Assembly (NCBI GenBank): GCA_013152715.1
Contig: JAADFU010000031.1
Span: 1 to 35,325, forward strand
Reading direction: 5' to 3'
DNA length: 35,325 nt
DNA from: Calditrichota bacterium
Lineage (GTDB): Bacteria > Zhuqueibacterota > Zhuqueibacteria > Thermofontimicrobiales > Thermofontimicrobiaceae
Part shown: one piece after another, positions 3,735 through 27,817 of the stretch
Layout: every line of letters begins with the position of its first letter
Numbering within the stretch: the stretch's first letter is position 1
Translations under genes and position numbers: made by a program
The notes under the pieces: generated by a model
The model's input: only the letters and a program-made list of their open reading frames with translations
The model's database searches: none
What the model was told of the DNA's origin: nothing

Positions 3735-3775
3735 TTTTGCAAACCAGGTTTCTTCTACGAGCCTGGTTTGCAAAA
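3735..3775 (+). terminator. hairpin after guaB, convergent gene ends
   Basis: Perfect 14-base arms, 3735-3748 (TTTTGCAAACCAGG) and 3762-3775, around a 13-base loop. It lies 14 bases after the guaB stop and overlaps the last codons and stop of the convergent SGNH gene. The following plus-strand bases (TTCTTTC) are only a weak T tract, so it may act as a factor-dependent stop or RNA stabiliser rather than a classic intrinsic terminator. Confidence 0.6.
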
Positions 3776-4903
3776 TTCTTTCAATTTTGCCGCTATAATC
3801 TGGTTCGCTTCCGGCGTGAAATGAATATCACCGCTGAAAATCTGCGTGCCCGCTTCTGCCCCTAAAATTTTTCGCCCATCAATGAAATCAAATTGATTCA
3901 GTTGAGCCAACCTTTTCAATTCGTCGTAAGGAGTTTTTGCGGACGAATTTTCAAATTCCCACTTTTCCGGCAACAAGAGCAAAACGAGGCGAAAATTCCA
4001 CTCATGAGCATAAATCTGCATGGCCTTGAGCAGAGCGTTTGTGAGGGTTCCATTTCGCAGCCGAATTTCTTTGTGAGCGGAGTTCATTTTATTGGCAGAA
4101 TCGCCCCATTTTCCCACTTTTTTCTTCATTAAATTGAACAAGCCAAGAAAAGGTGTAAACTCTTGCCTCTTGAATTGTTCAAATTTCTGATAATGCATGT
4201 CGTAGCGATGAAAAAACGCCAGCGGCTCGATTGAACCGGGAATATCTTCCAGAAATTCCAAAACATTCGGCTGAATCAAAATCAGATGATTTTTTTCCAG
4301 ATTAAATCTGGGCTTTACCAACGCGAATTCTACATCAGGGTCGCAAAACGGCAAATAGAGGCAGTCCAGCAATTCCGTGTTGCGGCTGCCCAAACCAACA
4401 ATGACCACGTCCGGCGAAAATTGCTTTGCAGCGTCCATGAGCAAAAGATAAATCTGGTCGAGACTGAAATATTCCGTGCCGAAATTCAGTGTTTCCAGAT
4501 TGCTATCTTCCACAAAGCTGCTCACGGTTTCGTTATTGGAAATTTTTCCCCCGCCACTGAGGCGCGAATCGCCAAGAAAGATGACGCGCGTCTTTTTACG
4601 TTTTTTCTCGGCGATGCTCTCCACGGAACGCGAGCCAAAGGTGTCGAAATGAATATTTTCGCCGGTGTAATTCGGCTGATTTTTCCAGCCCAATTTTTCA
4701 TCAGGAATAATTTGAAAACGACCGTCCTGAAAATCACGCGTCCGTTGCATCAATTTCCAGGAGAGATAGGAGCGTAAATACCAGGTCTCCGGGAAAATCG
4801 ACTCGATGAATCCCGACAGAGCGATCTCGGCCACAGCAATGAAAAACATCGCCAGAAAGAATTTTCGGTTTTGTTTGAGGAATTGTAAAATAGTCTGCCA
4901 CAT
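3755..4903 (-). CDS. SGNH/GDSL hydrolase-like protein, DltD/AlgX-type partner of MBOAT
   Basis: A 382-residue protein anchored by one N-terminal membrane segment (about residues 15-36), with the rest predicted in the periplasm. SGNH catalytic blocks are present: FLGDSRLSGGG with nucleophile Ser113, a block III-like GLGSRN around Asn175, and GDIHFTPEAN carrying Asp359 and His361. Such proteins receive or remove acyl groups on cell-surface polymers, and they commonly sit beside an MBOAT acyltransferase, as DltD does with DltB and AlgX/AlgJ with AlgI. The MBOAT gene ends nine bases upstream, so the two are surely co-transcribed. The start has only a weak AAAGAAA purine stretch upstream. The acyl group and acceptor cannot be read from sequence. 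Confidence 0.8.
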   Translation of the reverse strand: MWQTILQFLKQNRKFFLAMFFIAVAEIALSGFIESIFPETWYLRSYLSWKLMQRTRDFQDGRFQIIPDEKLGWKNQPNYTGENIHFDTFGSRSVESIAEKKRKKTRVIFLGDSRLSGGGKISNNETVSSFVEDSNLETLNFGTEYFSLDQIYLLLMDAAKQFSPDVVIVGLGSRNTELLDCLYLPFCDPDVEFALVKPRFNLEKNHLILIQPNVLEFLEDIPGSIEPLAFFHRYDMHYQKFEQFKRQEFTPFLGLFNLMKKKVGKWGDSANKMNSAHKEIRLRNGTLTNALLKAMQIYAHEWNFRLVLLLLPEKWEFENSSAKTPYDELKRLAQLNQFDFIDGRKILGAEAGTQIFSGDIHFTPEANQIIAAKLKEFCKPGS

Positions 4904-4912
4904 TTTTTTTCT

Positions 4913-6346
4913 TTAAAATTGGAAATAAATAAAATTCCGCGCCTCCGCATGATAGACAACCATGAGAAAAAGCATGAGATACAAAATGCCAAAACGAATC
5001 AGCAGCGGCAAACGAAAAAATTGACTAAGATCATTGTTGTTTTTTGCCAAAAAGATTTCTGCGATGAGCAGCGGCGCTGCATAGGCAGCGATTTTTAGCA
5101 ACAAATCCAGTTCCGAAGGACCGAAAGAAAAATCGCTCAAAATCAACCAAAAGCAATGAGCCGCCCGCGCCAATGTCGGCGCGCGGAAAAGAATCAGACC
5201 AATGATGACAAAATTCAGCGTCACTACGATGGCAATAAAATCGCCGAGAGGACGCACGGGTGAGAATTTTCTCTGCTGTTGATGATTCTTTTTTCTTCTG
5301 ACAAAATGATAAATCGCCAGCGCCGCTCCGTTGTATGCGCCCCAGAACAAAAAATTCCAGCCGGCGCCGTGCCACAAACCGACGAGCAGAAAAGTGACAA
5401 AAATAGCCGCGTAGGGAATCATGGGCCTGTAACGCCACTTCACCATCGCCAGTGGCAAAAAGACGTAATCTTTAAACCATGACGTCAAACTGATGTGCCA
5501 GCGCTGCCAGAAGTCCTGAATATTGCGGCTGAAAACCGGATTGTGAAAATTCTGCGACAATTCAAATCCCATGAGCCGCGCCGCTCCGCGCGCGATGTCG
5601 GTGTAAGCAGAAAAATCCGCGTACAATTGAATGGCGAAGCCGTACAACGTTCCCCAAACGAGCGCAGCGCTCAAATCACTGCCGTTTCGTGCGCCGAAGT
5701 AGGAAATCATTGTTCCTAAATTATCGGCAATTACCACTTTTTTGAACAGTCCCCAATAAATCAGCAGCAGCCCGTTTTTTAATTTGTCAGTCGTCAACGT
5801 GCGCTGCTGTTCGATCTGCGGCAAAAAATCGCCTGCGCGTTCAATAGGCCCGGCGATCAATTTCGGGAAAAAAGCGACGTACAGGGCGTAGTCGATGAAA
5901 TTTTTCGTAGGCTTGATTTTCTGTCGATAAACATCAATGGTGTAGCTCATGGTCTGAAAAGTGTAAAATGAAATGCCGATGGGCAAAATGACCCGCAGCG
6001 TGGATTGATGCAGTTGAATGCCCAAATTTTGCAAAAGCGCAAAGAGATTGTCTGCAAAAAAATGGAAATACTTGAAAAATCCCAGCATGGTTAAATTCAC
6101 GAACAAACTAACGAGCAAATATTTCCGCCGGTCTTTTCGAAAATCGTGCTGATCAATTTTCCAGGCGCAAAAAAAATCAGTGGTTGTAGAAAGTAAAATC
6201 AAACCGAGAAATCGCCAATCCCAGAAGGCGTAAAACAAATAACTGGCGAGCAGCAGAAACCAATTTTGAAGCCGGAGTTTTAGCGAAAGATAAATGACAT
6301 AAACGATGAGCAAAAAAATGAAAAATTCAAACGAGTTAAAATTCAT
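4913..6346 (-). CDS. MBOAT family membrane O-acyltransferase (AlgI/DltB-like)
   Basis: A 477-residue polytopic membrane protein of the membrane-bound O-acyltransferase family, which passes acyl groups across or at the membrane onto polysaccharides, teichoic acids or lipids. The family core is clear: LPIGISFYTFQTMSY (about 121-135), FPKLIAGPIER (160-170), the FWQRWHISLTSWFKDYV segment with His284, and GLWHGAGWNFLFWG with the near-invariant His326. About ten hydrophobic segments are visible. It lies between the FemAB-carrier fusion (120-base gap) and the SGNH gene (nine-base gap), all on the same strand. No convincing Shine-Dalgarno precedes the ATG, which is common for membrane proteins here. 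Substrate unknown. Confidence 0.9.
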   Translation of the reverse strand: MNFNSFEFFIFLLIVYVIYLSLKLRLQNWFLLLASYLFYAFWDWRFLGLILLSTTTDFFCAWKIDQHDFRKDRRKYLLVSLFVNLTMLGFFKYFHFFADNLFALLQNLGIQLHQSTLRVILPIGISFYTFQTMSYTIDVYRQKIKPTKNFIDYALYVAFFPKLIAGPIERAGDFLPQIEQQRTLTTDKLKNGLLLIYWGLFKKVVIADNLGTMISYFGARNGSDLSAALVWGTLYGFAIQLYADFSAYTDIARGAARLMGFELSQNFHNPVFSRNIQDFWQRWHISLTSWFKDYVFLPLAMVKWRYRPMIPYAAIFVTFLLVGLWHGAGWNFLFWGAYNGAALAIYHFVRRKKNHQQQRKFSPVRPLGDFIAIVVTLNFVIIGLILFRAPTLARAAHCFWLILSDFSFGPSELDLLLKIAAYAAPLLIAEIFLAKNNNDLSQFFRLPLLIRFGILYLMLFLMVVYHAEARNFIYFQF

Positions 6347-6466
6347 GGCGGTTTGATCGCTGTTTTGTTTCGATTTCTTCGGATTTCCGGGAGCCGCTCG
6401 TTGTCAGATTTTTTGATTTCAAACATGCAAACGCTTCATTTGTTTGGTTCGCAGTGCAGTGCGATT

Positions 6467-7789
6467 TCAAAAACGAACAGTCATTTTTTCCTGAATCAGG
6501 CGGCAAATTGAACTGATGGAATCAAAGTTTTCAGAAGTAATTTCTTCCGGGAAAAAGTGAACATCAAATTTTTCCTGCAAATCCTGAACCAGGTCCACCA
6601 GTGCCAGCGAATCAATGAGCCCTGAACCGACCAGCGGCATTTTGGGATTTAATGCGCCGTCCCATTCTGGATTCTTTTTTACGACATTTCCCACTGCGCG
6701 CGTGACGCCGCTGGTAATACCGGCGCCCTCCTCGAGAGTTACTTCCCCAACTTCGATGGGCCAATCCAATCCAGGCAAAAAGCCATGCAGGTCAGCGCGT
6801 TTGCGCGAAGTCTGAGATTCCCGAGGCAGAAAACTGGGAAATACCTCGTAATTTCCCGGGTAACTGTATTCTGTGCCGCCGGTTGTTCGTTTGAATGCCG
6901 AAGCGCCCATTTTGCGGGAAGGATCGGCGCCGCCCAGATCGAACCATTTGTAGCGCAAATCGCGATGGTACTGAATCGCACGCCAGACGAGATAGCGCAT
7001 GCCCACAAAATCTGTGGTGCGCGTCGCGTCCCACGCGGTCAGAGCAAAAGCCGTATCAGCGAACACCGTTGTGACCAGCCCCGCTACATATTTTTCTTCC
7101 CGATAAGCAAGGAAAAGCTGGCTGTTCACATCGCTGGTCTCCCAGAAAGCGGACAACAAATCAGACGAAGGCCAACCTGTGGCATTGTTTTTTGCATCGA
7201 GGCGATATTGGAAAAGGAAAAATTGAAAATCATCAGCGGAGTGGCTCACTTTTGCCTGAAAATTTTCCCGCTCCGCGCGCTCCAATGCCTTGCGCCAGTG
7301 CCGTTTCATCTGACTGCGTATTTCATCTTCAGGTCGATCAATATCCAGCCTCACCGACGCCCAGACAGGATCAGATACAGTTCGCAAATTCAATTCTTTG
7401 TGCCAGCCTCTGGGCAATTCTCCGGGGAACAAACAAGGACTGAGATAAAGATGTCGCTGCTGACGATTGACCCAATAATTTTTCAACTCCCGAATGGCGA
7501 TCACAGCAATCATCGGCTGCCAAATTTCATCCGTGTCAAAAAACAAAGGCCCGTTTTGAATGCGAGCTACAGGCCCGATGCCGGAAACTTCTTTCAATAA
7601 AATTTGCGCCATTGCCAGAGGCTTGCCGTTGCGTAAAACGAGCTGCCGAAGGGGGCCAAATCCGACAGTTCTTTTAATCGCTTCGCCGTATTCCCACGTC
7701 TGCATCAAATCTACATGCCGGGCGCGATTTAACAAAATATTCCAATCATAGCCATTCTCGACCGTCTGAAACGCGATCTCTTCCCTCAT
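6467..7789 (-). CDS. FemAB/GNAT-like acyltransferase fused to acyl-carrier domain
   Basis: A 440-residue two-part protein. Residues 1 to about 325 form a FemAB-like double-GNAT fold (WEYGEAIKRTVG near 32, a basic helix SQMKRHWRKALERAE, and the C-terminal WFDLGGADPSRKMGASAFKRTTGG segment typical of FemAB/GNAT_6 enzymes that transfer aminoacyl or acyl groups). After a linker, about residues 372-437 resemble a carrier protein: GSGLIDSLALVDLVQDLQ, with Ser394 (codon 6608-6610) as the expected phosphopantetheine site, then FPEEITSENFDSISSI. FemAB relatives beside separate carrier genes are known from exosortase (PEP-CTERM) loci; a fusion is less usual. It is the first gene of a minus-strand cluster with MBOAT and SGNH partners. 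AAGGG precedes the ATG. No adenylation enzyme or phosphopantetheinyl transferase is nearby. Confidence 0.8.
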   Translation of the reverse strand: MREEIAFQTVENGYDWNILLNRARHVDLMQTWEYGEAIKRTVGFGPLRQLVLRNGKPLAMAQILLKEVSGIGPVARIQNGPLFFDTDEIWQPMIAVIAIRELKNYWVNRQQRHLYLSPCLFPGELPRGWHKELNLRTVSDPVWASVRLDIDRPEDEIRSQMKRHWRKALERAERENFQAKVSHSADDFQFFLFQYRLDAKNNATGWPSSDLLSAFWETSDVNSQLFLAYREEKYVAGLVTTVFADTAFALTAWDATRTTDFVGMRYLVWRAIQYHRDLRYKWFDLGGADPSRKMGASAFKRTTGGTEYSYPGNYEVFPSFLPRESQTSRKRADLHGFLPGLDWPIEVGEVTLEEGAGITSGVTRAVGNVVKKNPEWDGALNPKMPLVGSGLIDSLALVDLVQDLQEKFDVHFFPEEITSENFDSISSICRLIQEKMTVRF

Positions 7790-8071: not shown

Positions 8072-9229
8072 CTATCGAGCAGAGAATCGAATCCGGATTT
8101 GCACAATTTCCGGACGATTGCCCAAGCGAATCGGCGGCCCCCAGGTTCCCACGCCGCTGCTGACGTAAAAGTGCGTGTTCCCTTTCTTCAAATAGCCCCA
8201 ACTTTTTTCATAAAGCAAATTTGTGATCAAATTCAAAGGAAACAATTGCCCGTGATGCGTGTGTCCGGAAATTTGCAGATCGATTTTGTTTTCCGCAGCT
8301 TCGTCGAGTCCGAAAGGCTGGTGATCCAGCAAAATGAGCGGTTTTTGAAAATCGATGTCAGCAACCAGTCCCGCAAGTGATTTGCGGCTGTTGCCGTTGA
8401 ACTGGCGCACGCTGCGATCTTCCCTGCCGACAATGTAAAAATCATCCTGTACCAAAACGACTTCATCCCGCAAAACCTGAATTCCGTGTTGCCCGAGATA
8501 AGCTGCCGCGCGATCCACGCCGCCGATGAATTCGTGATTTCCGGTAATGGCAAACACGCCAAATTTCGCCGACAGTTTCAGCAAATCATCCCCCAAATTT
8601 TCTTTGATCACTGGCGCCAGGTCTTCATCGACCACATCGCCGGCCAGCAAAACCAGATCCGGCTTGAGATTATTTATTTCGGAAACAATTCGTGAAAAAC
8701 GGGACTTCCCGACAATCGTGCCCAGATGAATATCTGAAGCGGTAACCACAGTCAGCGAATCAAAGCGGCTTTTTTTGTGAATCTCAAGATCGAGCGTCGT
8801 AATTTTCGGAAAAAGCGCATTCACAAAACCAATTGCCACCAAAACAAAAACGAAGATCAGAGAACCGAAAAACATCAGAGAGCGGAAATTTTGCGCCGAG
8901 GATTTCACCGTCGCGCTGAACGGCACGATGAAATTCACCAGTCGAAAAATATCTGCGAATAAAACAATGAGAAAGAAATAAAACATGGCCGCCATCCAGA
9001 ACGATCCCACCCAGATCAAGGTTTCGCTCAGCGGCGAAATCCACAGCCGTTCTAAAATTCTCCCGATTAAGTACGAAAATGCTACCAGCCAGAAAACGAT
9101 TTTGAACACACTTCGCCACCGCTCATCGAACGGAAAAACACTCAATGCCCGGATGAAAATGTAAGCGTTGATGAGCGTGTAAATTAAAATTACAATGGAA
9201 AAGAATAGTACAAAATTCCAGAATTTCAT
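8072..9229 (-). CDS. membrane-anchored metallophosphoesterase (YaeI/YkuE-like)
   Basis: Calcineurin-like phosphoesterase behind an N-terminal membrane region. About four hydrophobic segments span the first 150 residues. The metal-binding blocks follow in order: ASDIHLG, LLAGDVVDED, TGNHEFIGG and SGHTHHGQLFP, giving the Asp, Asn and His ligands of a dinuclear centre. Relatives such as YaeI and YkuE act on phosphodiesters or lipid-linked phosphates at the membrane; the substrate here is unknown. The ATG at 9229 has AAGG nine bases upstream. A TTG at 9277 would add 16 polar residues and is the alternative start. It stands alone, divergent from the flavoprotein gene at 9507. Confidence 0.85.
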   Translation of the reverse strand: MKFWNFVLFFSIVILIYTLINAYIFIRALSVFPFDERWRSVFKIVFWLVAFSYLIGRILERLWISPLSETLIWVGSFWMAAMFYFFLIVLFADIFRLVNFIVPFSATVKSSAQNFRSLMFFGSLIFVFVLVAIGFVNALFPKITTLDLEIHKKSRFDSLTVVTASDIHLGTIVGKSRFSRIVSEINNLKPDLVLLAGDVVDEDLAPVIKENLGDDLLKLSAKFGVFAITGNHEFIGGVDRAAAYLGQHGIQVLRDEVVLVQDDFYIVGREDRSVRQFNGNSRKSLAGLVADIDFQKPLILLDHQPFGLDEAAENKIDLQISGHTHHGQLFPLNLITNLLYEKSWGYLKKGNTHFYVSSGVGTWGPPIRLGNRPEIVQIRIRFSAR

Positions 9230-9506
9230 CAGTCGCAGCCTTTCGCTGAATGTCCGTTTGCTGTGATTCTCGCTCAATTGTTCTCGGCAAAAATATAAGG
9301 TAAAAAGTTAAACATTTTTGAGAGAATTGCAAGGATTTTTTTGCGGACCCGAGCAGTAAAAAGTGTTTTTTTAGATATTTGTTTTAGGCGAGACAAAAAT
9401 CAGCCCGACTCCATTTTTCCCGCTTGCTTTTTTGTGAAAAATTCATTAGCTTGTGGCACAATTGACTTCATTTTAAAGATGAATTTCATCGCTCAAAAAT
9501 TTTAAT

Positions 9507-16700: not shown

Positions 16701-18623
16701 CTATTTTTTATCATCATCATCCACTACTTCGTAATCGGCTTCTTCCACATTTTTACTATCTTGCGAGCCAGCATCAGTTCCTTCGGCTTCTGCGCCGCCT
16801 TGCGGGCCAGCACTGGCTTCCGTTTGCTGCTGCTGATAAAGTTTCGCTGAAACCTCATTCCAGGCATTATTCAGCGCTTCAATGCTAGATTTGATTTGAT
16901 CCGCATTTTCAGTTTTCATCGCATCTTTCACAACATTCACAGCGGACTCAATTTTGCTCTTTGCATCTGAATCCAACTTGTCCGCCATTTCTTTCATGTT
17001 TTTCTCTGTCTGATACACCATCTGGTCGGCTTGATTTTTTAAGTCGATCAATTCACGTTTTTTCTTGTCATCGGCCGCATGTTCCTTGGCATCGTTAACC
17101 ATTTTGTCAATCTCTTCTTTGGACAGACCGGTGGAAGCTTCGATGCGAATCGATTGTTCCTTGCCAGTCGCTTTGTCTTTGGCAGAGACATTCAAAATTC
17201 CGTTAGCGTCGATGTCAAATGTCACTTCGATTTGCGGTACGCCGCGCGGTGCCGGCGGTATTCCGTCCAGATGGAATTTTCCCAACGTGCGGTTATGCGA
17301 CGCCATCTCGCGCTCTCCCTGCAACACGTGAATTTCCACCGACGGCTGATTGTCCGACGCCGTAGAAAAAATTTCTGATTTCCGCGTCGGGATCGTTGTG
17401 TTCTTGTCAATGAGCTTGGTAAAAACTCCGCCCAAAGTCTCGATTCCCAGAGACAGTGGCGTCACGTCCAACAGCAACACATCACTAACATCGCCGGCCA
17501 AAACGCCGCCCTGAATCGCCGCGCCGATAGCTACGACCTCGTCAGGATTCACGCCTTTGTGTGGGTCTTTGCCAAAAATTTCTTTCACGATTTGCTGTAC
17601 TTTGGGCATTCTCGTGGACCCGCCGACCAGCACAACTTCATCGATTTGAGATGTGGTCAAACCAGCGTCTTTCAGCGCCATTTGGCAGGGGGAAACCAAA
17701 CGCTGGAACAGATCGTCACACAATTGTTCAAATTTGGCTCTCGTGAGTACCATATTCAAGTGTTTCGGCCCCGCATCCGTCGCGGTAATGAACGGCAAAT
17801 TGATGTCGGTCTGGCTCATCGTAGAGAGCTCAGTTTTGGCTTTTTCCGCCGCTTCTTTTAACCGCTGCAATGCCATAGCGTCTTTAGACAGGTCAACCCC
17901 TTCCTGTTTCAAAAATTCATCCACCATCCAGTCGATGACCCGCTGATCAAAATCGTCGCCGCCCAAATGTGTATCGCCGTTAGTGGACTTTACTTCAAAA
18001 ACGCCGTCGCCGATTTCCAAAATGGAAATATCAAAAGTACCGCCGCCAAGGTCGAACACAGCAATTTTTTCGTCTTTTTTCTTGTCCAGACCATAAGCCA
18101 ACGACGCGGCAGTCGGCTCGTTTATGATACGTTTCACCGTCAACCCGGCAATTTCTCCGGCTTCCTTCGTCGCCTGGCGCTGGCTATCATTGAAATAGGC
18201 GGGCACAGTGACGACAGCCTCAGTGACTTTCTGCCCCAGATAATCCTCCGCCGTCTGTTTCATCTTCTGCAAAATCATGGCAGAAATTTCCTGCGGCGAA
18301 TATTCTTTATTCTCTATTTTCACTCTGGCAACGTCATTTTTACCGCGCGCCACTTCATACGGCACTTCTTCAATTTCACGCTTCACTTCAGCATATCGTC
18401 TTCCCATGAATCTTTTAATGGAATAGACCGTATTTTTCGGATTTGTCACGGCCTGCCGTTTGGCAATTTGTCCCACCAATCGCTCGCCGTCTTTGGTGAA
18501 GGCAACAACTGACGGCGTCGTCCGTCCGCCTTCCGCATTCGGAATCACCACCGGCTCGCCGCCTTCCATCACTGCGACACACGAGTTTGTCGTCCCCAGA
18601 TCAATACCAATTATCTTTCCCAT
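16701..18623 (-). CDS. dnaK: chaperone protein DnaK (Hsp70)
   Basis: A 640-residue ATP-dependent chaperone of the cytoplasm. The nucleotide-binding domain (about 1-385) opens with [19 protein letters not shown] and has [28 protein letters not shown] and [13 protein letters not shown]. The substrate-binding domain (about 390-505) has [16 protein letters not shown] and [21 protein letters not shown] helical lid is followed by a Gly/Ala/Glu-rich tail ending in [12 protein letters not shown], the bacterial EEVD-like C-terminus. GGAGG lies nine bases before the ATG. DnaJ and GrpE partners are encoded upstream on the same strand, but dnaK sits last, after a terminator, so it needs its own promoter or read-through. 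No CIRCE element was seen in its leader. Confidence 0.98.
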
Positions 18624-18727
18624 AAAAAAAAACCTCCTTCAGTCATTTTATGTTCAAACTCTTTGCACATTTCTTTCCGTTCAATTCATGCCGTCACTTC
18701 GCAAATTCCATGCCATATTTAGGAAAC

Positions 18728-18779
18728 AAAAAAGGCGTACTTGTAAGATATTATTTTTTAATAAATTACAAACACGCCT
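18728..18779 (-). terminator. intrinsic terminator upstream of dnaK, after fmdB-like gene
   Basis: Arms 18733-18746 (AGGCGTACTTGTAA) and 18766-18779 pair at 12 of 14 positions. The A run at 18728-18733 gives a U tract on the minus strand directly after the stem. It lies about 80 bases past the fmdB-like stop and about 105 before the dnaK start, separating dnaK from the upstream genes. Confidence 0.65.
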
Positions 18780-18856
18780 AATAAATAGCATCTCGCTGTC
18801 AATTTTACAAGTTCTAACAAGTCTGCCTATTTGTCAGTAATTTATGGCATACTTTT

Positions 18857-19126
18857 TTATGCCACCTTCTTCCCTGTTCCTGACGCTTTTGAGCTATCTT
18901 TGGATGAAATTCCTTCAGATTTTTGCTTGTCTTTCTTGTAGCTGTTTCTGCGATAATCAGTGACATAAAATCCGCTTCCCTTAAAAATAAAGCCGTTGCC
19001 AGCGCCGATCAACCGTCGCACATGGCCTTGACATTTCGGACATTTTGTCAACGGTTCGGCTGTAATCGATTGAAATTCCTCAAAATGGTATCCGCAATCG
19101 TCACAAATGTAATCATAAGTCGGCAT
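18857..19126 (-). CDS. FmdB family zinc-ribbon protein
   Basis: An 89-residue protein with the FmdB regulatory-type zinc ribbon: MPTYDYICDDCGYHFEEFQS, then TKCPKCQGHVRRL, giving the two CxxC pairs for one Zn(II). The GSGFYVTDYR segment after the ribbon is typical of the family. The C-terminal third is Lys/Ser-rich and probably disordered. The start at 19126 is chosen because GGGAGTGGG precedes it and family members begin MPTY; an upstream in-frame start at 19180 would add 18 atypical residues. The molecular role of this family is not established. Here it lies between htrA and dnaK, each side bounded by a terminator. Confidence 0.85.
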   Translation of the reverse strand: MPTYDYICDDCGYHFEEFQSITAEPLTKCPKCQGHVRRLIGAGNGFIFKGSGFYVTDYRRNSYKKDKQKSEGISSKDSSKASGTGKKVA

Positions 19127-19193
19127 AATCCCACTCCCTTTTCCTGCAAAATAAAAATGACGTTTTTTGTTTCCTGGCAAATGTCTCGCTCTT

Positions 19194-19231
19194 AAAAATG
19201 CCGGGCAGATGAAAATGATTTCACCTGCCCG
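19194..19231 (-). terminator. intrinsic terminator of htrA
   Basis: Arms 19202-19214 (CGGGCAGATGAAA) and 19219-19231 pair with one mismatch around a four-base loop. Five A at 19194-19198 read as a U tract on the minus strand. It lies 17 bases beyond the htrA stop codon. Confidence 0.75.
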
Positions 19232-19247
19232 ATTCTGCCGGTCACGG

Positions 19248-20843
19248 CTAATCCGAAATTCGAACCGTCACATAGTAATTGCTCACAGTGCCATTCAGAT
19301 TTTTCTTCAAGCGAATAACGAGAATATCTCCTTTCTTCACTTTCCGCATGTACCGGTCATAGTCGCGGACACTCTTAATTTTCGTCTGGTTAATCGCAGT
19401 AATCAAATCGCCTTCACGGATTCCTTTGCGATATGCTTGACTGGTGCGCTCAACCGACGTTACCAGCACGCCGCGCTCAGAATCTTCAAATCCGTATCGT
19501 TGCGCCATTGCCGGAGCCAAATTCGTAATGTGGATTCCCAGTTTTTCGACTTGCGGTTCTTTGCTTTCAGATACAGGATGATCACCCGGCCTCTGGCCCA
19601 ATTTAACCGGAACGGTCAAATATTTGCCGTCGCGGAAAACTTTTAATTTCACGGTCGTCCCCGGCTCATAGTCCGCAACTTTCAGTTGCAATTCCGTGTT
19701 GTCTTTTACCGGATGCCCGTCAATCGCGACAACGATATCACGCTCTTTTAAACCCGCTTTTTCAGCCGGAGTTCCTTTCTGCACGCTGGAAATCAACGCG
19801 CCCTTTCCTGATTTAAGACCAAAAGCTTCCGCCATATCCTCATCGACGGGCTGAATGATTACGCCGAGATAACCGCGAACAACGTAGCCTTTTTTAATCA
19901 AAATATTCATAATATGTTTTGCCATATTAACAGGAATGGCAAACCCGATGCCGTTGAAACCGCCGGATTGCGAAATAATCGCCGTATTAATTCCAATCAG
20001 TTCGCCGTGCAAATTAACCAGCGCGCCGCCGCTGTTTCCGGGGTTGATAGCCGCCGTTGTCTGAATATAATCCTGATACGAAGCGCCCAAACCAATGCCG
20101 GAACGGCCTTTGGCACTGATGATTCCGTTGGTTACCGTGGACTGCAATTGTTTGCTGAACGGATTTCCGACAGCCAATACAATTTGCCCCACTTCTATTT
20201 TATCGGAATTCCCGAGTTTTGCAAAAGGCAAATTTTTATCGTCAATCTTAACGACGGCAACGTCTGTTTTTTCATCTCTACCAATTAATTTGGCTTCGTA
20301 TTCTTTGCCATCATTCGTGATGACGCGAATCTGATCCGCTTCTTTCACCACGTGATTATTCGTCAAAATATAGCCGTCAGAACTGACCAGCACGCCGGAA
20401 CCCAAACCTTCCTGAACATACGTACGTTCGCGGCCCTGCTGTTCGTTTTGCCGTTGTCCTCGTCTGTTAAAAAAATCAAAAAAGTCGCTACCGAAAAAAT
20501 CTTGAAACGGATTGTTCATGTGGTATTTGATATACTTTTCGCTGGTAATGGTAACCACAGTAGGTTTCACTCTTTTGGCTACTGAAATATAGGCCTTTTC
20601 CAGATCGAGCAATCCCTGTGGCAAAGATGAATCATCGGTCGCTTGCACAGCAGATTCGCTCCCTTCGTCAGAAGCTTGCGCTGTGGCCACCGAATTCTCC
20701 GCGGCCGGAGCTTCTTTGGTTGAGTGATCCGAGGCAATGCTATTCCAAATTAAACCAAAATTCGTCGATATTGCCAGTCCAATAATTACTCCCAAAAATA
20801 TTGCCGTCACAATAAACAGCGCATTTCTCTTTGTCGTTGGCAT
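19248..20843 (-). CDS. htrA: Do family (DegP/HtrA) periplasmic serine protease
   Basis: A 531-residue envelope protease/chaperone. One N-terminal membrane segment or uncleaved signal (about residues 8-28) is followed by a Ser/Ala-rich linker. The trypsin-like domain has an intact triad: His164 (TNNHVVKEAD), Asp194 (KTDVAVVKI) and Ser271 (NPGNSGGAL). Two PDZ domains follow (GYLGVIIQPV to about 415, and a second to the C-terminus). The LA loop with FFDFFNRRGQ is typical of DegP/DegQ. AGGAGG precedes the ATG. It lies 81 bases after dnaJ on the same strand, linking envelope and cytoplasmic protein quality control in one cluster. Confidence 0.93.
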   Translation of the reverse strand: MPTTKRNALFIVTAIFLGVIIGLAISTNFGLIWNSIASDHSTKEAPAAENSVATAQASDEGSESAVQATDDSSLPQGLLDLEKAYISVAKRVKPTVVTITSEKYIKYHMNNPFQDFFGSDFFDFFNRRGQRQNEQQGRERTYVQEGLGSGVLVSSDGYILTNNHVVKEADQIRVITNDGKEYEAKLIGRDEKTDVAVVKIDDKNLPFAKLGNSDKIEVGQIVLAVGNPFSKQLQSTVTNGIISAKGRSGIGLGASYQDYIQTTAAINPGNSGGALVNLHGELIGINTAIISQSGGFNGIGFAIPVNMAKHIMNILIKKGYVVRGYLGVIIQPVDEDMAEAFGLKSGKGALISSVQKGTPAEKAGLKERDIVVAIDGHPVKDNTELQLKVADYEPGTTVKLKVFRDGKYLTVPVKLGQRPGDHPVSESKEPQVEKLGIHITNLAPAMAQRYGFEDSERGVLVTSVERTSQAYRKGIREGDLITAINQTKIKSVRDYDRYMRKVKKGDILVIRLKKNLNGTVSNYYVTVRISD

Positions 20844-20924
20844 GATTTATTCCTCCTAAAAAATTTTTTAATAAACATCGTTTCTTTTAACTTTAGAAAA
20901 ACGGAAAAGATTCACAAACGCCCA

Positions 20925-22058
20925 CTACGGCGCATGTGCCATTTCATATTCCTCGACCAATTTCTTTTCTTCTGCCGTAAGATTGGTTCTTTTCTTCACG
21001 CGAATAGTTACGTACATGTCGCCGATCCCTTTCTTCGATTTAATTCCTAACTTTCGCAGATTGAATTTTTTCCCGTCTTTTGTCTGCGCCGGAACTTTGA
21101 TCTCCACTTTCTTATTATAGACTGTCTTTAATCTGATTTTGGTTCCTTTGATAGCCTGAATTATGTCGATGGGAACCTCGCAAAACACATCGTTACCTTT
21201 TCGCTTGAAGAAATGATGCGGCGAGACATGTACTTTCAAATATAAATCGCCGCGTTTTTCCTTGCTGGAACCGTTTCCGCCAAGACCTTTCAACCGCAGC
21301 ACGGCGCCGTCTTTGATTCCCGCCGGGATGGTCACGGATAACCTTTTTGTCTTTTTCACCTCTCCGCTGCCTCCGCACACGCGACAGGGCTTGTCAATAA
21401 TGATACCTCGCCCCAGACAACGGGGGCAGGTTCTATTTACCGCAAAAAATCCCTGAGACAGCGAAATTGTACCGCGACCATTGCACTGGGGACAAGTTTG
21501 CGGATTTGCGCCTGGTTCAGCACCGGTTCCGTTACAGTGAGAACACCTCTCGTCCACTTGAACAGCGATCTGTTGTTTTCCGCCATTTACAGCTAACTCG
21601 AAAGGAATAGTCAAATCTGTCCGGGCATCCGCGCCAACGCCGGGTCTCCCGCTGCGTTCGCGCCGAATTCGGCTCCCTTGGTCAAACATCTCGCTGAAAA
21701 TATCGCCCAGTCCGCCGACACCGAACAACTCTTCAAAAATGCTGCCTCTCGAAGAGTGGGTTCTCGCCCGCCCCTGTCTGTTGAATTGACCAAAATCAAA
21801 ATTTCCAAAATCAAAACCGCCTGCTTGTCCGCCTGAAAAACCAAAGCGACGCATCTGATCGTATTTTTTTCGTTTCTCCGGGTCGCTCAACACGGCGTAA
21901 GCTTCAGAAATATCCTTAAACCGATCTTCGGCTTCTTTATTGCCTCTATTTGCGTCCGGGTGGTATTTTTTGGCTAACTGTCGATAAACGCGCTTTATCT
22001 CCGCCGCAGAAGCGTCCTCTTTCACGCCCAGTATTTCGTAGTAATCCTTTTTCGCCAT
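20925..22058 (-). CDS. dnaJ: chaperone protein DnaJ (Hsp40)
   Basis: A 377-residue type I J-protein that delivers substrates to DnaK and stimulates its ATPase. The J domain (1-70) has the HPD motif in KYHPDANRG. A Gly/Phe-rich region follows (GFSGGQAGGFDFGNFDFG). The zinc-finger region has four CxxCxGxG-type repeats (CSHCNGTG, CPQCNGRG, CPRCLGRG, CRVCGGSG). The C-terminal substrate domain (VTIPAGIKDGAVLRLKGLGG) is complete. AGAGGTGG precedes the ATG. It starts 12 bases after grpE, so the two share a transcript. Confidence 0.97.
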   Translation of the reverse strand: MAKKDYYEILGVKEDASAAEIKRVYRQLAKKYHPDANRGNKEAEDRFKDISEAYAVLSDPEKRKKYDQMRRFGFSGGQAGGFDFGNFDFGQFNRQGRARTHSSRGSIFEELFGVGGLGDIFSEMFDQGSRIRRERSGRPGVGADARTDLTIPFELAVNGGKQQIAVQVDERCSHCNGTGAEPGANPQTCPQCNGRGTISLSQGFFAVNRTCPRCLGRGIIIDKPCRVCGGSGEVKKTKRLSVTIPAGIKDGAVLRLKGLGGNGSSKEKRGDLYLKVHVSPHHFFKRKGNDVFCEVPIDIIQAIKGTKIRLKTVYNKKVEIKVPAQTKDGKKFNLRKLGIKSKKGIGDMYVTIRVKKRTNLTAEEKKLVEEYEMAHAP

Positions 22059-22070
22059 TATTCACCACCT

Positions 22071-22655
22071 CTATTCATCTTTTTTATTGACCTTCACTTG
22101 CGCCGGTCTCAGCAATCGGTCTCTAAATTTGTAACCCTTGCGCCATTCTTCGATCACATGATCGTCATCGAGATGATCGTGATTTTCCACCATCACCGCC
22201 TCATGGACATTCGGATCAAATTTTTCGCCGACGGACTGAATTTGTTCCAATCCTTGCTCTTCGAGAACATCGTTCAATTTTCTGTGAATCAGTTTAATCC
22301 CTTCGATGACATGTTCCCGATTTTCATCAGCGTCGATGTGTTCAATCATGCGATCAAAATCATCGATCACCGGCAGCAGCCGCTGCACAAAATCCGCGCG
22401 TATCGAGTCAGCGAAAGATTTCTGTTCGTTCTCCGTACGCTTTTTGTAATTTAAAAATTCTGCCTGCAAGCGCAAATATTTCTCCTGCAAATTTCCCTGT
22501 ACGCCTGAAACATCAGCAACGGATTCTTCTTCGTCAGCAGTCACCGCTTCCCGAGTGCCTTCATTTTCATCTAAATTCTCATTTCTCACCTTTTCCTCTG
22601 CTTCGTCCTGAATGTCAATTTCGATGCTGTTATCTTTTTTGTCTTCATCAAACAT
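22071..22655 (-). CDS. grpE: nucleotide exchange factor GrpE
   Basis: About 194 residues. GrpE exchanges ADP for ATP on DnaK. An acidic, low-complexity N-terminus (residues 1-50) is followed by a long coiled-coil helix (LQEKYLRLQAEFLNYKKRTENE), the four-helix-bundle region and the beta-wing with EKFDPNVHEAVMVE and KGYKFRDRLLRPAQVKV, the family signature. The ATG at 22655 is preferred: GGCGGAGAG lies five to ten bases upstream. A GTG at 22676 would place that site inside the coding region. First gene of the chaperone cluster. hrcA, usually its neighbour, is absent. Confidence 0.95.
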   Translation of the reverse strand: MFDEDKKDNSIEIDIQDEAEEKVRNENLDENEGTREAVTADEEESVADVSGVQGNLQEKYLRLQAEFLNYKKRTENEQKSFADSIRADFVQRLLPVIDDFDRMIEHIDADENREHVIEGIKLIHRKLNDVLEEQGLEQIQSVGEKFDPNVHEAVMVENHDHLDDDHVIEEWRKGYKFRDRLLRPAQVKVNKKDE

Positions 22656-22858
22656 AAAAACTCTCCGCCTTCCCACATGTTTTTTTGCATGTTCTAAATT
22701 TTAAAAACTCTGCCGTTGAAAATTGTCCATCAAGGCAGGTCAATCGCTTTATTAATTCAATGATAGCAATTATTCATTTACAAACTTTGTGCCATTTTTG
22801 TTTTTGCTAACTATTTATTTGATTTTACTGATGTTAACCAACAAGCAAAGATATTTCC

Positions 22859-22881
22859 TCGTCTGCCAAATTGGCAGACGA
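22859..22881. repeat. 23-base palindrome upstream of grpE
   Basis: Perfect 11-base arms (TCGTCTGCCAA and its complement) around one central A, about 205 bases upstream of the grpE ATG. The symmetry suits a dimeric repressor operator; it could also fold as a nine-pair hairpin with a five-base loop. No T tract follows on either strand, so a terminator is unlikely. Confidence 0.6.
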
Positions 22882-23011
22882 ATGAGACGTTGATACTGCA
22901 AAATGCTGAAACAGTTGGATTAATTTATCTGATGGTGTGCAAAGAAGTGGCATTTTGAATCGCATCAATCGCTTGCTTTTTTTAATCGGCAATTGAGAGA
23001 AATTAAACTGC

Positions 23012-23086
23012 AAGGCACAAATAAAGAAAGCACGTTTTTGTTATTATTTCAATTGAAAAACTCGACGAAAAAGGACTTCGTGCCTT
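23012..23086. repeat. small inverted-repeat element
   Basis: Arms 23012-23021 (AAGGCACAAA) and 23077-23086 (TTCGTGCCTT) match at nine of ten positions and flank a near-central palindrome TTTCAATTGAAA (23047-23058). It looks like a decayed non-coding repeat just downstream of the second htrA gene. Confidence 0.4.
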
Positions 23087-23124
23087 CGAGCCTTTATGGT
23101 AAAAAAAAATATCGAGCCTGCCAA

Positions 23125-24600
23125 TCAATTCGCCTCAACGAAACGATGAAAAAAGTTATCTTTCCTCTTAATTTTCATCATGAAGACCTTGCGATGCGGA
23201 GGTTGAGCGAGGATTTTTTTAAACAAATAAAGCGAAGTAATTTTTTGATTGTCAACTTCTAAAATGACATCATTGACCTGTACCTGCGCCTCTTGAGCCG
23301 GACTTTCCGGCTCGACCTGTGTCACGACCACGCCCTCGCCGACATTGAGATCCAGCTCTTTGGCAATTTTCGCATCGATGCTTTTCACGGTCAATCCCAA
23401 CAAGGAAAAACCAGGCGTTTTTTTTGCAAAAGTCTGACGTACCTTTGGACCCTCTCGGCTGCCCAAAATGACTTTCACGTTCAATTCTTTTCCCAAACGG
23501 AGAATTGTCAGCACAACAGAATCACCCGGTTTTTTTTGCGCAATCAGGCTTTGAATGACATTGCTCTTCGTTACCGGTTTGTGATCCACGGCGATTAAAA
23601 TATCCTTTTCCCGCAAGCCGCTTTTCCACGCAGGACTGTTCTCACTCACGTAATCGACAAAAACGCCTTGAGGTTTCAGCAAATTCAGGGCGCGGGCAAT
23701 TTTTTCATCCACGTCCTGCATGGCGATACCGAGATAGCTACGAATGACATAGCCGCGGTTGATTAAATCCGACAAAATTTGTTTAGCAAGATTAATCGGA
23801 ATGGCAAATCCGTACCCCTGATTGTAGCCGGACTGCGTGGCGATGGCGGTGTTGATGCCGATCACTTCGCCGGACAAATTCACCAGAGCGCCGCCGCTGC
23901 TTCCAGGATTAATTGTGGCGTCAGTTTGAATGAAATTCTCCACGCCGAAATTATCATCAATAATGTCGATTTCCCTGCCGATGGCGCTCACGATTCCCGC
24001 TGTCACAGTGGATTTCAATTCCAACGGATTGCCCACCGCCAACACCCACTCGCCTATTTTCACCGAATCAGAATTTCCCAATTTCGCCGCTGGCAAATCC
24101 GTGGCGTCAATTTTGATGACTGCCAGTTCTGTCAGCGGATCCGCACCCACAATTTTCGCGTCGAGCGAGCGATTATCCGACAGCGTTACTTCGATTTTTT
24201 CTGCGCTTTCCACCACGTGCAAGTTCGTCAAAATATAGCCATCTCGCGTAACAATGATTCCCGAGCCGGAGCCTTTTTGCTTGTACTCCCGCGGCGGCAC
24301 CAAATTCAAGTATTTTTCACCCAAAAAATCGCGCAATTCCCGGTCAACGATATTGTCGTCCCAAATGCGGGAACTGGTGATACGTTTTGTGCTGTAAATG
24401 GTCACCACCGTCGGGATGACTTGTTTGGAAATTTTGACAAAGACACGGGAAGTCTGAATCGGATCAAACGAGATACCGTTGATGCTTTGCTGCAACCGCC
24501 CAAGAGAGGCGCTGTTTTGAGAATATAAATTCAATGCCCAAAATTGACAAATAAAAGCGCAAAAATAAATAAAGATTTTTCTGAATGACATAATTTTCAT
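23125..24600 (-). CDS. HtrA-like trypsin/PDZ protease with altered triad
   Basis: About 491 residues. The signal sequence is MKIMSFRKIF followed by a hydrophobic run ending near LYSQ, so it is periplasmic. The trypsin-like domain has His128 (NLHVVESA) and Ser235 in NPGSSGGAL, but the Asp position reads PLTELAVIKI, so Glu158 replaces the usual Asp of TDLAV. Two PDZ domains follow (YLGIAMQDVDEKIARAL onwards, and LGLTVKSIDAKIAKEL to about 475). The start is uncertain: ATG at 24600 with AAGAA six bases upstream is preferred over ATG 24606 and a TTG at 24627. It lies 58 bases downstream of the restriction-modification gene on the same strand. Confidence 0.85.
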   Translation of the reverse strand: MKIMSFRKIFIYFCAFICQFWALNLYSQNSASLGRLQQSINGISFDPIQTSRVFVKISKQVIPTVVTIYSTKRITSSRIWDDNIVDRELRDFLGEKYLNLVPPREYKQKGSGSGIIVTRDGYILTNLHVVESAEKIEVTLSDNRSLDAKIVGADPLTELAVIKIDATDLPAAKLGNSDSVKIGEWVLAVGNPLELKSTVTAGIVSAIGREIDIIDDNFGVENFIQTDATINPGSSGGALVNLSGEVIGINTAIATQSGYNQGYGFAIPINLAKQILSDLINRGYVIRSYLGIAMQDVDEKIARALNLLKPQGVFVDYVSENSPAWKSGLREKDILIAVDHKPVTKSNVIQSLIAQKKPGDSVVLTILRLGKELNVKVILGSREGPKVRQTFAKKTPGFSLLGLTVKSIDAKIAKELDLNVGEGVVVTQVEPESPAQEAQVQVNDVILEVDNQKITSLYLFKKILAQPPHRKVFMMKIKRKDNFFHRFVEAN

Positions 24601-24658
24601 AATCATTTCTTGTAAGAATTCAAACAACTTTCAGACTATTTCCTCTTTTGACTGCACC

Positions 24659-27600
24659 CTAAAATTCAACCACGCTATCTTCAACTAACGGATAAATTTC
24701 ATCTATTTTTTTCTGAATTTCCATCGTCGTGCTCAACGCCGTAATGATCCGGCAAAAACGCGGCGCCTCATCCATAATTCTTCCTTTGCGGTCCTTCAAA
24801 TATTTTTGCAACACCTGATATCCGCCGATGTGGTAATCCCACACCTCCGGCGCGACACCTTCAAAATATTTGTTTTTGTTGATATAAATTCTTTGCTCAT
24901 TTTCTTTGTAATCAATTTTTTCAACCCGATCGTTGTCACCGCTGCCTTGAAATCTGGCGACCGGAAGATCAAGCGCCGGACTTTTTAGCAGATGCAGATT
25001 AGCTAACTCTTTGCCCAATCTTCCGATTTTCTTGAACAGAGCAAAATCGGCTGTAAAAGGAACACGCGGAAAATCCATTTTCAAATACTCGGCGTAGGTT
25101 TCGCGGTAAACATTGCTGTAAAAAACGCCGTAAATGTAGTAGAGGATTTCTTCCGGAGACGGCCTTTTCCCAAAAGCCATTTCTAATTTTTCGAAAATGA
25201 TCAGCGAGATATTAGGTTTCCTGCCGTAAGTCTCTTTATGGTCGAAAACCATCATAATGGTGGAGCCAGACCTGGAGGTGTGTTTTTCTTTTTGGGGATA
25301 AAGGTACAAAGGCAATATATATGTGATTTCACTTGTCTTATTGGATATAAAACTACTTTCGATGATAATATCGGATACTAAACAGTGCCGCCAATTTCTG
25401 CTTGCTTTAACCTGCCTCTCAATTGTCAAGGCAACATTCTCTTCCTGCATGTGACGCATGACTTCAGACCGCATTCGTTCAATCATTGCTTTGTGGTAAA
25501 ATATGTAGCGTTGGTCAAAAGGTCGATATGATATCTCTTTAATATAATCATCAATATCAGTAATTTTATTCACAATTTTCCGCGCATCCTTAATTTTCCA
25601 ATTTGATTTTTCTTTTAAATTAAAAGCCTGCTTAATAACCTCATCCGGCTGTGACAAGTTTCTGAATTGAAGCATTCTATTTTTTAGCTCATTCTCATTG
25701 AAGCCAATTACGAAATGATCCCTTGCCGTGACAATCCCCACGCTATTTACAGGGAAAATTTCATTTATCTTTTCCCATTTCAAATATTTTTTAATCTTTT
25801 CAGTATCTCTTTTAATGAAAAAATAGTAAGGGCTTTGCGGGTGAATTTGCGTGTAATTTTTTTTGATGATTGAATGTTGGCTCAACCATTCATATTTCTC
25901 TTTTCTCAAGCCAAATAAATCAGCATGAAAAATGCGCGGTTTTTTCTTCTTTTTATTTTTAATGAACAATGCAATCGCTACGCCCTGTCTGATGTCAAAC
26001 ACATTTTCATCTTTGCCGCCCTTGGGAGTGGTTTCTTTTTTCAAACTATTGCCGTGCAAATCAAGGATATAAATTTCGTCAAAAGTTTTCATCAGGCTCT
26101 GGCGCATACCGCGAAAAGTCGGATTGTCAAGATAGCTATGATTTGTGATCATGCCAACGATGCCGTAGCCAGAATTTTGTATTTTCCATTGAGCGAAACG
26201 CAAAAATTTGACATAATCATCTTGCAGCCATTTCGGATTTTTCTCGCCAAGAGGAGCTCCGTCAACTTCATAGTAACTCTGGCAATCATCGAGATTTTCC
26301 TTCAACAATTTCTCTGTCCAGTCATTGGTGTTTGCTGAAATACCGCTGTAGGGAGGATTACCTAAAATTACCAACACTGACTGCTCTCTTTTGATTTTTC
26401 CTGCACGATGACTTTCTTCGCTCAATGAACTCAATCCGGGGATGGCGATTTGCTCAATTTCTTCCATCTCCAGTGAATTCGTCAAATAAAGTTGGAATCG
26501 CTCATCCTCGGACATTTTATAACCCAAGTCATCAAAAACAAACCCCATTTTCAAATGGCCGATGGCGTAAGGCGCCATCATCAATTCAAAAGCATAAAAA
26601 TTGGCAAGAATATGTTTTTTTATCCATTGTCCCAGCGCACCGATGCCATATTTTTCCTTAAATTCTTCCGCCGCAAGCCGAACAGCTTTGGCAGGAAAAG
26701 TCAGAGTGCCGCCTGCCGGATCGAGGAGTTTTACTTCCTGGCTGGCAAGACCGTCAGGCAGAGCAAAATGCGTTTTTAAAATCTCATGAATTGAGCAAAC
26801 GATATAATCGACTACTGGCTCCGGTGTGTAATAAACGCCGCGCCGTTCGCGGACCTCAGGGTCATACGTTTCCAGAAAAGTCTCGTAAAAATGAATAATC
26901 GGATCTTTGCCTTTGCCGCTTTTCATGTACTCATGCAAAATTTTATTCACATCAGCGACATGCAAAATCTCCGCGATGTCTTCAACAATTATTTGCAACG
27001 CTTTGGGAGGTTCTCCGAGAGAAATGAAATGAAAAATATCACGCAGAATACCTATCGTATGCGGGATGTAATCAAAGGCAAGTTTTCGGCTAAACTCTCC
27101 GTTCGCACGCGTCCTGGCGGCAAACATGCCGTAAGTTATCGTCTGTGCGTATAGGTCAGCAAATTGTTTTTCGGATAAGGTTCCGATTAAATATTTTTTG
27201 AATGCCTCATAAAATCCGACGATGTGTTTGCGTCCCTTGCTCCCATTTTCCGATAGCTCGACAGTGATGACCTCATCACGTAAAAATCGCGTTCGTTTGG
27301 CTAATTCGACCGCCAGCGAATGGGCCGTTTGCACTCTTGGCAAAGAAAAAGAAAAGAATAAATCAAACAGTTCTTTGAATTTGTCGATATTCTCTACTGG
27401 CGGTGCTGTGCGCAATTTTTTAGCAACAATAGGACGCCCAATCATCGCTTGGGCAATTTTTTTGCCTTCCCGATAAAGACGGAATTCATAAAAATTTGTA
27501 AGAATGACATTAGGGAAAGTCGACAAATAGCGGCGCAACTGTTCAGTATTTTCAACATAATCAAGGTTTGTAACAGAAGGGTCTTTCGCTTCTATGTAGC

Positions 27601-27817
27601 CGGTGATGTGATTTTTGCCGTCCCAGATGCGAAAATCCGGATTGCCGGCTTCGGTTTTCTTGGGGACGATGGTAATGTCAATTTTTTTTATTTTTTTAAT
27701 GTCGGTAAATTGCTCGATCAAGTTGTGCAAATGCTGGTAATAACTCTCTTCACGTGCATCCCCGCGACGCGAGGTGGCAGTAAGATTTTTCAGGTATTGT
27801 TCTAATAAATTTTTCAT
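24659..27817 (-). CDS. single-chain type ISP-like restriction-modification enzyme, no helicase
   Basis: A 1052-residue protein combining nuclease and N6-adenine methyltransferase parts. The N-terminus has a PD-(D/E)xK nuclease pattern: Asp61 in GNPDFRIW, then Glu76 and Lys78 in GYIEAKDP. A helical region of about 180 residues leads to the methyltransferase: RRGVYYTPEPVVDYIV (326-341), motif I-like DPAGGTLTFPAKA (from 366) and catalytic motif IV NPPY (487-490). The C-terminal half, ending in VWDYHIGGYQVLQKYLKDRKGR, is the type ISP C-terminal, target-recognition region. LlaGI-type ISP enzymes carry an SF2 helicase between nuclease and methyltransferase; no Walker A or DExH motif is seen here. 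No separate specificity or restriction gene is adjacent. The start has only a weak purine stretch upstream. Confidence 0.88.
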   Translation of the reverse strand: MKNLLEQYLKNLTATSRRGDAREESYYQHLHNLIEQFTDIKKIKKIDITIVPKKTEAGNPDFRIWDGKNHITGYIEAKDPSVTNLDYVENTEQLRRYLSTFPNVILTNFYEFRLYREGKKIAQAMIGRPIVAKKLRTAPPVENIDKFKELFDLFFSFSLPRVQTAHSLAVELAKRTRFLRDEVITVELSENGSKGRKHIVGFYEAFKKYLIGTLSEKQFADLYAQTITYGMFAARTRANGEFSRKLAFDYIPHTIGILRDIFHFISLGEPPKALQIIVEDIAEILHVADVNKILHEYMKSGKGKDPIIHFYETFLETYDPEVRERRGVYYTPEPVVDYIVCSIHEILKTHFALPDGLASQEVKLLDPAGGTLTFPAKAVRLAAEEFKEKYGIGALGQWIKKHILANFYAFELMMAPYAIGHLKMGFVFDDLGYKMSEDERFQLYLTNSLEMEEIEQIAIPGLSSLSEESHRAGKIKREQSVLVILGNPPYSGISANTNDWTEKLLKENLDDCQSYYEVDGAPLGEKNPKWLQDDYVKFLRFAQWKIQNSGYGIVGMITNHSYLDNPTFRGMRQSLMKTFDEIYILDLHGNSLKKETTPKGGKDENVFDIRQGVAIALFIKNKKKKKPRIFHADLFGLRKEKYEWLSQHSIIKKNYTQIHPQSPYYFFIKRDTEKIKKYLKWEKINEIFPVNSVGIVTARDHFVIGFNENELKNRMLQFRNLSQPDEVIKQAFNLKEKSNWKIKDARKIVNKITDIDDYIKEISYRPFDQRYIFYHKAMIERMRSEVMRHMQEENVALTIERQVKASRNWRHCLVSDIIIESSFISNKTSEITYILPLYLYPQKEKHTSRSGSTIMMVFDHKETYGRKPNISLIIFEKLEMAFGKRPSPEEILYYIYGVFYSNVYRETYAEYLKMDFPRVPFTADFALFKKIGRLGKELANLHLLKSPALDLPVARFQGSGDNDRVEKIDYKENEQRIYINKNKYFEGVAPEVWDYHIGGYQVLQKYLKDRKGRIMDEAPRFCRIITALSTTMEIQKKIDEIYPLVEDSVVEF

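Follow-up and report, generated by a model that had tools for sequence, protein, structure and literature searches.

A carrier domain fused to a FemX-like enzyme and encoded beside an MBOAT and an SGNH protein: a candidate carrier-fed envelope acylation system in candidate division KSB1

A carrier, an MBOAT and an SGNH protein encoded side by side raise the question of whether an acyl group is handed from one to the next as in the Dlt system, and, where the carrier is fused to a FemX-like enzyme, what that enzyme contributes. We examined such a locus on one contig of a 4.15 Mb genome (G000) of candidate division KSB1; the window is the whole stretch of DNA analysed, 35,325 nucleotides in length. 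The three genes of interest are:

3755-4903, minus strand: SGNH gene; N-terminal helix, GDSR motif with Ser113, DxxH near the C-terminus; putative DltD/PatB-like role
4913-6346, minus strand: MBOAT gene (PF03062); His326, FLPLAMVKWR (residues 296-305), FIYFQF (Tyr474)
6467-7789, minus strand: FemX-like plus carrier fusion gene; tandem GNAT at about residues 1-320, carrier at about residues 355-438

The genes follow one another in the order fusion, MBOAT, SGNH within a single minus-strand cluster, 120 and 9 bases apart, and open reading frames, strand and spacing are all as the first-pass annotation had given them. Its neighbours in the window are guaB (IMPDH, plus strand) on one side and, on the other, a metallophosphoesterase gene (8072-9277, upstream of the fusion, with an LpxG/YaeI-like sequence). 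Farther along, two HtrA/DegP-like proteases are interleaved with dnaK, dnaJ and grpE, all on one strand (16701-24627), and a type ISP restriction-modification-like protein (24659-27817; PF18135, N6_Mtase) adjoins an HtrA-like protease.

Searching 388 genomes with a profile of the fusion returned full-length fusions in three, all of them among the 82 genomes of the phylum and none among about 306 outside it, while the shorter matches were FemAB-only or carrier-only. All three fusions stand beside both an MBOAT and an SGNH gene and all three conserve the carrier serine, in keeping with the linked system that the first-pass annotation had proposed. The nearest named relative, NATN01000115.1 (a candidate division KSB1 MAG), shares 80% identity across the entire fusion. 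Besides the window, the complete trio is present on the congener contig (L005), where the IMPDH gene is again one flank and a GlcD-like gene the other, and in a genome from another family of the order (G010, locus L038), at 38-49% identity. All three trios share the carrier residue Ser394, the MBOAT residues His326 and Tyr474 and the SGNH residue Ser113, at overall identities of 38-80%. The metallophosphoesterase gene does not adjoin the trio in L005 or L038. In G010 the SGNH copy is frameshifted, and a TIGR03099-like PLP-dependent decarboxylase gene beside the trio (L038:10059-11198) contains in-frame stop codons, both of which may be either assembly errors or decay.

Its conservation both in NATN01000115.1 and, at 38% identity, in another family shows that the arrangement did not come about by chance. 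That three unrelated genes merely lie next to each other, with no functional link, could be argued from the 120 bases that separate the fusion from the MBOAT and from a genome of a sister genus in the same family (G002), which has no fusion at this site; set against order and strand that are the same in three genomes of two families, and an MBOAT loop signature common to other carrier-linked MBOATs (see below), this explanation is very improbable. The relatives are MAGs of varying completeness (G001 73%, G002 56%). G002 has the MBOAT and SGNH genes at the same site between IMPDH and GlcD, with a 650-base gap where the fusion would be expected and no trace of the fusion in that gap, and its MBOAT branches within the fusion-linked clade. 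The trio is thus not obligatory, and the simplest reading is that the fusion was lost or relocated in G002.

The MBOAT matches PF03062 (E 1.4e-22) and has DltB as its best NCBIfam family (E 2.3e-53), at 182 bits and so far below the DltB equivalog cut-off of 375 (TIGR04091). Its catalytic His326, its Tyr474 and the whole C-terminal FXYXXF acyl-shuttle motif, here FIYFQF (F472, Y474, F477), are kept in 40 out of 40 MBOATs (39 from KSB1 genomes plus that of the window). The function of this motif has been shown for PatA and DltX, where the Tyr carries the acyl group (PMC12148441). MBOATs of the window's family are present in 39 of the 82 phylum genomes, and most of those looked at adjoin an SGNH-like or similar-sized gene, without a carrier. 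The first-pass interpretation has to be amended here: MBOAT-SGNH pairs are ordinary in the phylum, and it is the carrier and FemX-like additions that are unusual.

For the SGNH protein, neither Pfam nor the sequences of the PDB gave a match. It aligns with other MBOAT-neighbour SGNH proteins (hhalign, 97%, E 7e-11), and Foldseek on its structure model, which is of low confidence (mean pLDDT 59) and was used for fold class only, returned SGNH hydrolases including PatB (7tjb, E 8e-5). Together with its GDSR and DxxH motifs and an N-terminal helix that may serve as membrane anchor, this makes the product look like a membrane-anchored SGNH-fold acyl transferase.

Investigating the MBOATs of the phylum, we observed that 35 out of 40 contain an [LI]GG loop within DYxxxxLGG, which is absent in the window's clade and in one further KSB1 locus (L122); on the tree of these 40 proteins the four members of the window's clade group together (100/100) on a long stem. 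A six-frame profile search for carrier domains within 3 kb of the same 40 MBOATs detected them only at the window, L005, L038 and L122, all without LGG. In a second sample of 80 further MBOAT loci, 79 of which come from outside the phylum, a carrier lies near none of the 68 with the loop and near six of the 12 without it. For the total of 120, a carrier gene is found within about 3 kb of 0 out of 103 [LIM]GG MBOATs and of 10 out of 17 non-LGG MBOATs (hypergeometric 1.7e-10, a value that takes no account of relatedness). At least six changes of the carrier label are required on the tree, and an independent-pairs test of LGG loss against carrier presence gave two to three pairs for and none against the association, which are too few for significance. 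Seven of the 17 non-LGG MBOATs have no nearby carrier gene, one of them (L180) at a contig edge, and the LGG loop itself is a marker found in this analysis, with no published criterion behind it.

The position of the loop relates it to carrier docking. DltC docks on helix HC of DltB through Met302, Val305, Ile306 and Met309 (PMC11035591), and these residues align with L297, A300, M301 and W304 of the window's MBOAT, a putative docking site that is hydrophobic and free of LGG, whereas Gly-Gly occupies the Val305/Ile306 columns in the LGG homologues. In place of the loop, the window's protein thus has a DltB-like hydrophobic segment, FLPLAMVKWR. From the association between the missing loop and carriers, and from the DltB-like sequence at the DltC-docking helix, we consider it likely that this MBOAT is carrier-fed. 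The Dlt-like hand-off from carrier to MBOAT to SGNH protein put forward at first pass is likewise favoured by this segment, together with the carrier serine and the neighbouring genes retained at all three loci. The window's genome encodes a second MBOAT (L050:7841-9457, contig C20) in which the LGG loop is present, with no carrier; both MBOAT kinds therefore coexist in one cell.

The second non-LGG lineage in KSB1, L122 (5321-9672, G056 contig C6), is a compact operon with the order ligase, carrier, MBOAT and SGNH, in which a free carrier lies between the AMP ligase and an MBOAT with the shuttle motif fused to it, and which amounts to a complete Dlt-like set. Further carrier-linked MBOATs resembling that of L122 are found at L192, L203, L217 and L256. 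One genome (G351) holds two close MBOAT paralogues, L235 with LGG and no carrier and L249 without LGG and with carrier sequence nearby, a natural pair for comparing a donor switch.

The same observations bear on another explanation, in which the FemX-like domain would, on the cytoplasmic side, move a carrier-bound acyl group to an amino sugar in the precursor of a surface glycan, and the MBOAT and SGNH protein would carry out a separate, acetyl-CoA-fed acylation of that glycan. FemAB relatives in the phylum do occur in surface-glycan gene clusters (L036/L037, L039-L042), and carrier-less MBOAT-SGNH pairs are common, G002 having the pair alone at the same site. However, the fusion-linked MBOAT clade lacks the LGG loop of the 103 carrier-less homologues and has DltB-like sequence instead, and no glycan-synthesis genes are located near the trio, so we hold this explanation to be quite improbable.

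Turning to the fusion protein, its single-sequence matches to the Pfam families PP-binding, FemAB and Acetyltransf_6 are all slightly below the cut-offs (for FemAB 18.1 bits against 24). Residues 12-316 nevertheless align with an alignment of eight FemAB-family proteins of the phylum (hhalign, 99.6%, E 6e-25), FemX is the top Foldseek match (E 5e-8) of a low-confidence model (mean pLDDT 53) used for fold class only, and an FK motif (F299-K300) lies where FemX has its catalytic Lys. Judged by its tandem GNAT arrangement and FK motif, the domain clearly belongs to the FemABX fold class. For the carrier part, the PDB returned aminoacyl carrier protein 1, peptidyl carrier proteins, PigG and DltC, and its predicted phosphopantetheine Ser394 sits in GLIDSL.

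A DltA-type adenylating ligase is encoded neither in the window's cluster nor on the L005 contig. The statement of the first-pass annotation that no DltA-like gene is present therefore holds for the cluster; the genome as a whole does encode candidate adenylating ligases elsewhere, the best being an amino-acid-adenylation/DltA-like ligase on contig C87 that adjoins a free carrier and a PigA/prolyl-PCP-dehydrogenase-like gene. It had also been proposed to look in the genome for an acyl-AMP ligase, for which C87 offers this candidate, and for an Sfp-type transferase; only one match to the phosphopantetheinyl transferase family was found, which we infer to be of AcpS type from its length and single-copy state. 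The C87 region (L036:12956-19533 and L037:325-3506) is a surface-polysaccharide-type cluster in which the ligase, the PigA/prolyl-PCP-dehydrogenase-like acyl-CoA dehydrogenase and the free DltC-like carrier are accompanied by a methyltransferase and three FemAB-family proteins, and it looks like a proline-to-pyrrole-carboxyl carrier cassette beside FemAB transferases.

Since the fused carrier is of the aminoacyl/peptidyl kind and the C87 ligase of the amino-acid-adenylation/DltA-like type, an amino acid is the probable cargo. We also considered whether the window's genome has a PLP decarboxylase dedicated to this system, and rejected this because the sole match scores like the general decarboxylases found in every relative. 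The decarboxylase of G010 scores much higher than these and adjoins the trio, which argues that it is not a general one.

What the FemX-like domain does with such a cargo can be approached from its position or from its chemistry, and these point in different directions. In the operons of L122 and L217 a ligase lies directly upstream of the carrier, and this is the place that the FemX-like domain occupies in the fusion, which favours carrier loading: an amino acid would be transferred from aminoacyl-tRNA to the phosphopantetheine thiol, replacing the ligase (DltA). Neither G000 nor L005 has a ligase next to the trio, and G001 (73% complete) gave no ligase match at E below 1e-25. In G010, on the other hand, a TIGR03098-like ligase gene and the PLP decarboxylase gene converge on the trio, and a close orthologue of this ligase was not found in G000 or G001. 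Furthermore, known FemABX products are mostly amides, with one aminoacyl hydroxylamine ester (VlmA), and we know of no FemABX member that loads a thiol, which leaves loading from tRNA unlikely.

The chemistry of the domain instead favours extension of an amino acid that is already carrier-bound. The substrate of PacB, a FemABX enzyme, is reportedly carrier-bound. FemX and its relatives use aminoacyl-tRNA, transferring the amino acid to amines, and PacB does the same onto a growing nonribosomal peptide (from a review). Our best guess is that the FemX-like part acts on an amino acid bound to the carrier of the same polypeptide, and extending that amino acid is the role we tentatively prefer over loading or a cytoplasmic modification, though with somewhat less than even confidence.

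Together, these observations suggest the following sequence of steps. Judging by conserved residues and homology, the C-terminal carrier of the fusion would be converted to the holo form at Ser394, probably by the single AcpS. A ligase encoded elsewhere, for which C87 is the best candidate, would pass it an activated group that is most likely an amino acid. The FemX-like domain might then act in cis on this cargo and join an amino acid to the amine on the carrier in the manner of PacB, which is the least certain step. Going again by conserved residues and homology, the carrier would dock on the DltB-like segment of the MBOAT, the acyl group would pass through the lumen (His326) onto Tyr474 of FIYFQF, and the SGNH protein would take it from there onto Ser113 and deliver it to an outer envelope polymer. 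As a whole, a carrier-fed MBOAT-SGNH envelope acylation with a Dlt-type donor and a PatA-type fused shuttle is the reading that we moderately favour on sequence grounds. Rather doubtful is a tRNA-linked form of it, in which the FemX-like domain would draw on aminoacyl-tRNA either to load its own carrier or to extend what that carrier holds, and the carrier-fed MBOAT with its Tyr shuttle would export an aminoacyl or dipeptidyl group to the cell surface; if true, it would tie the charged tRNAs of translation to MBOAT-SGNH chemistry.

Among known systems, the trio resembles Dlt teichoic acid D-alanylation (DltA, DltB, DltC, DltD and DltX) in combining a carrier, an MBOAT and an SGNH protein, with an MBOAT that, in the columns of DltB's DltC-docking helix, is DltB-like in sequence and has no LGG, and with a carrier domain of the DltC/aminoacyl kind. 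It differs from Dlt in that a shuttle motif is fused to the C-terminus of the MBOAT, with no DltX microprotein seen, the cluster is without DltA, the carrier is fused to a FemX-like enzyme, and the MBOAT falls below the DltB cut-off. To our knowledge, the KSB1 phylum has no teichoic acids, unlike the hosts of Dlt. With FemABX enzymes (FemX, MurM, PacB, Orf11) the fusion shares the tandem GNAT fold and FK motif, but it is joined to a carrier and encoded in an MBOAT-SGNH cluster, a fusion found in none of the other 385 genomes.

Two further systems were considered and set aside. The XrtA/PEP-CTERM set (TIGR03019, TIGR03098, TIGR03099) is matched weakly by the fusion (E 2e-5), the G010 ligase and the G010 decarboxylase, with all matches below the curated cut-offs. 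An OlsHI ornithine-lipid carrier reaches 28.8 bits against a cut-off of 130, and OlsH needs no carrier according to its paper.

The closest counterparts on the MBOAT side are the PatAB and AlgIJ-type O-acetylation systems, which likewise pair an MBOAT bearing a C-terminal FXYXXF motif with an SGNH protein (PMC12148441). PatA is fed by acetyl-CoA, and MBOAT-SGNH pathways other than Dlt are said to lack a carrier (PMC12148441), whereas the window's MBOAT has no LGG loop and is linked to one. In the published account, Dlt has a carrier as donor and a separate DltX, and the other pathways have an acyl-CoA donor and a shuttle fused to the MBOAT (PMC12148441). Against this split, the window and several unrelated operons join a carrier with a fused shuttle, a combination that, judging by the literature examined, appears to be new. 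Presence or absence of the LGG loop at the DltC-docking helix would then predict whether the donor is acetyl-CoA or a carrier-bound acyl group such as an amino acid. The FemX-like enzyme of the fusion, for its part, suggests that groups more elaborate than the acetyl of PatA-type systems or the D-alanine of Dlt are placed on the surface of some bacteria.
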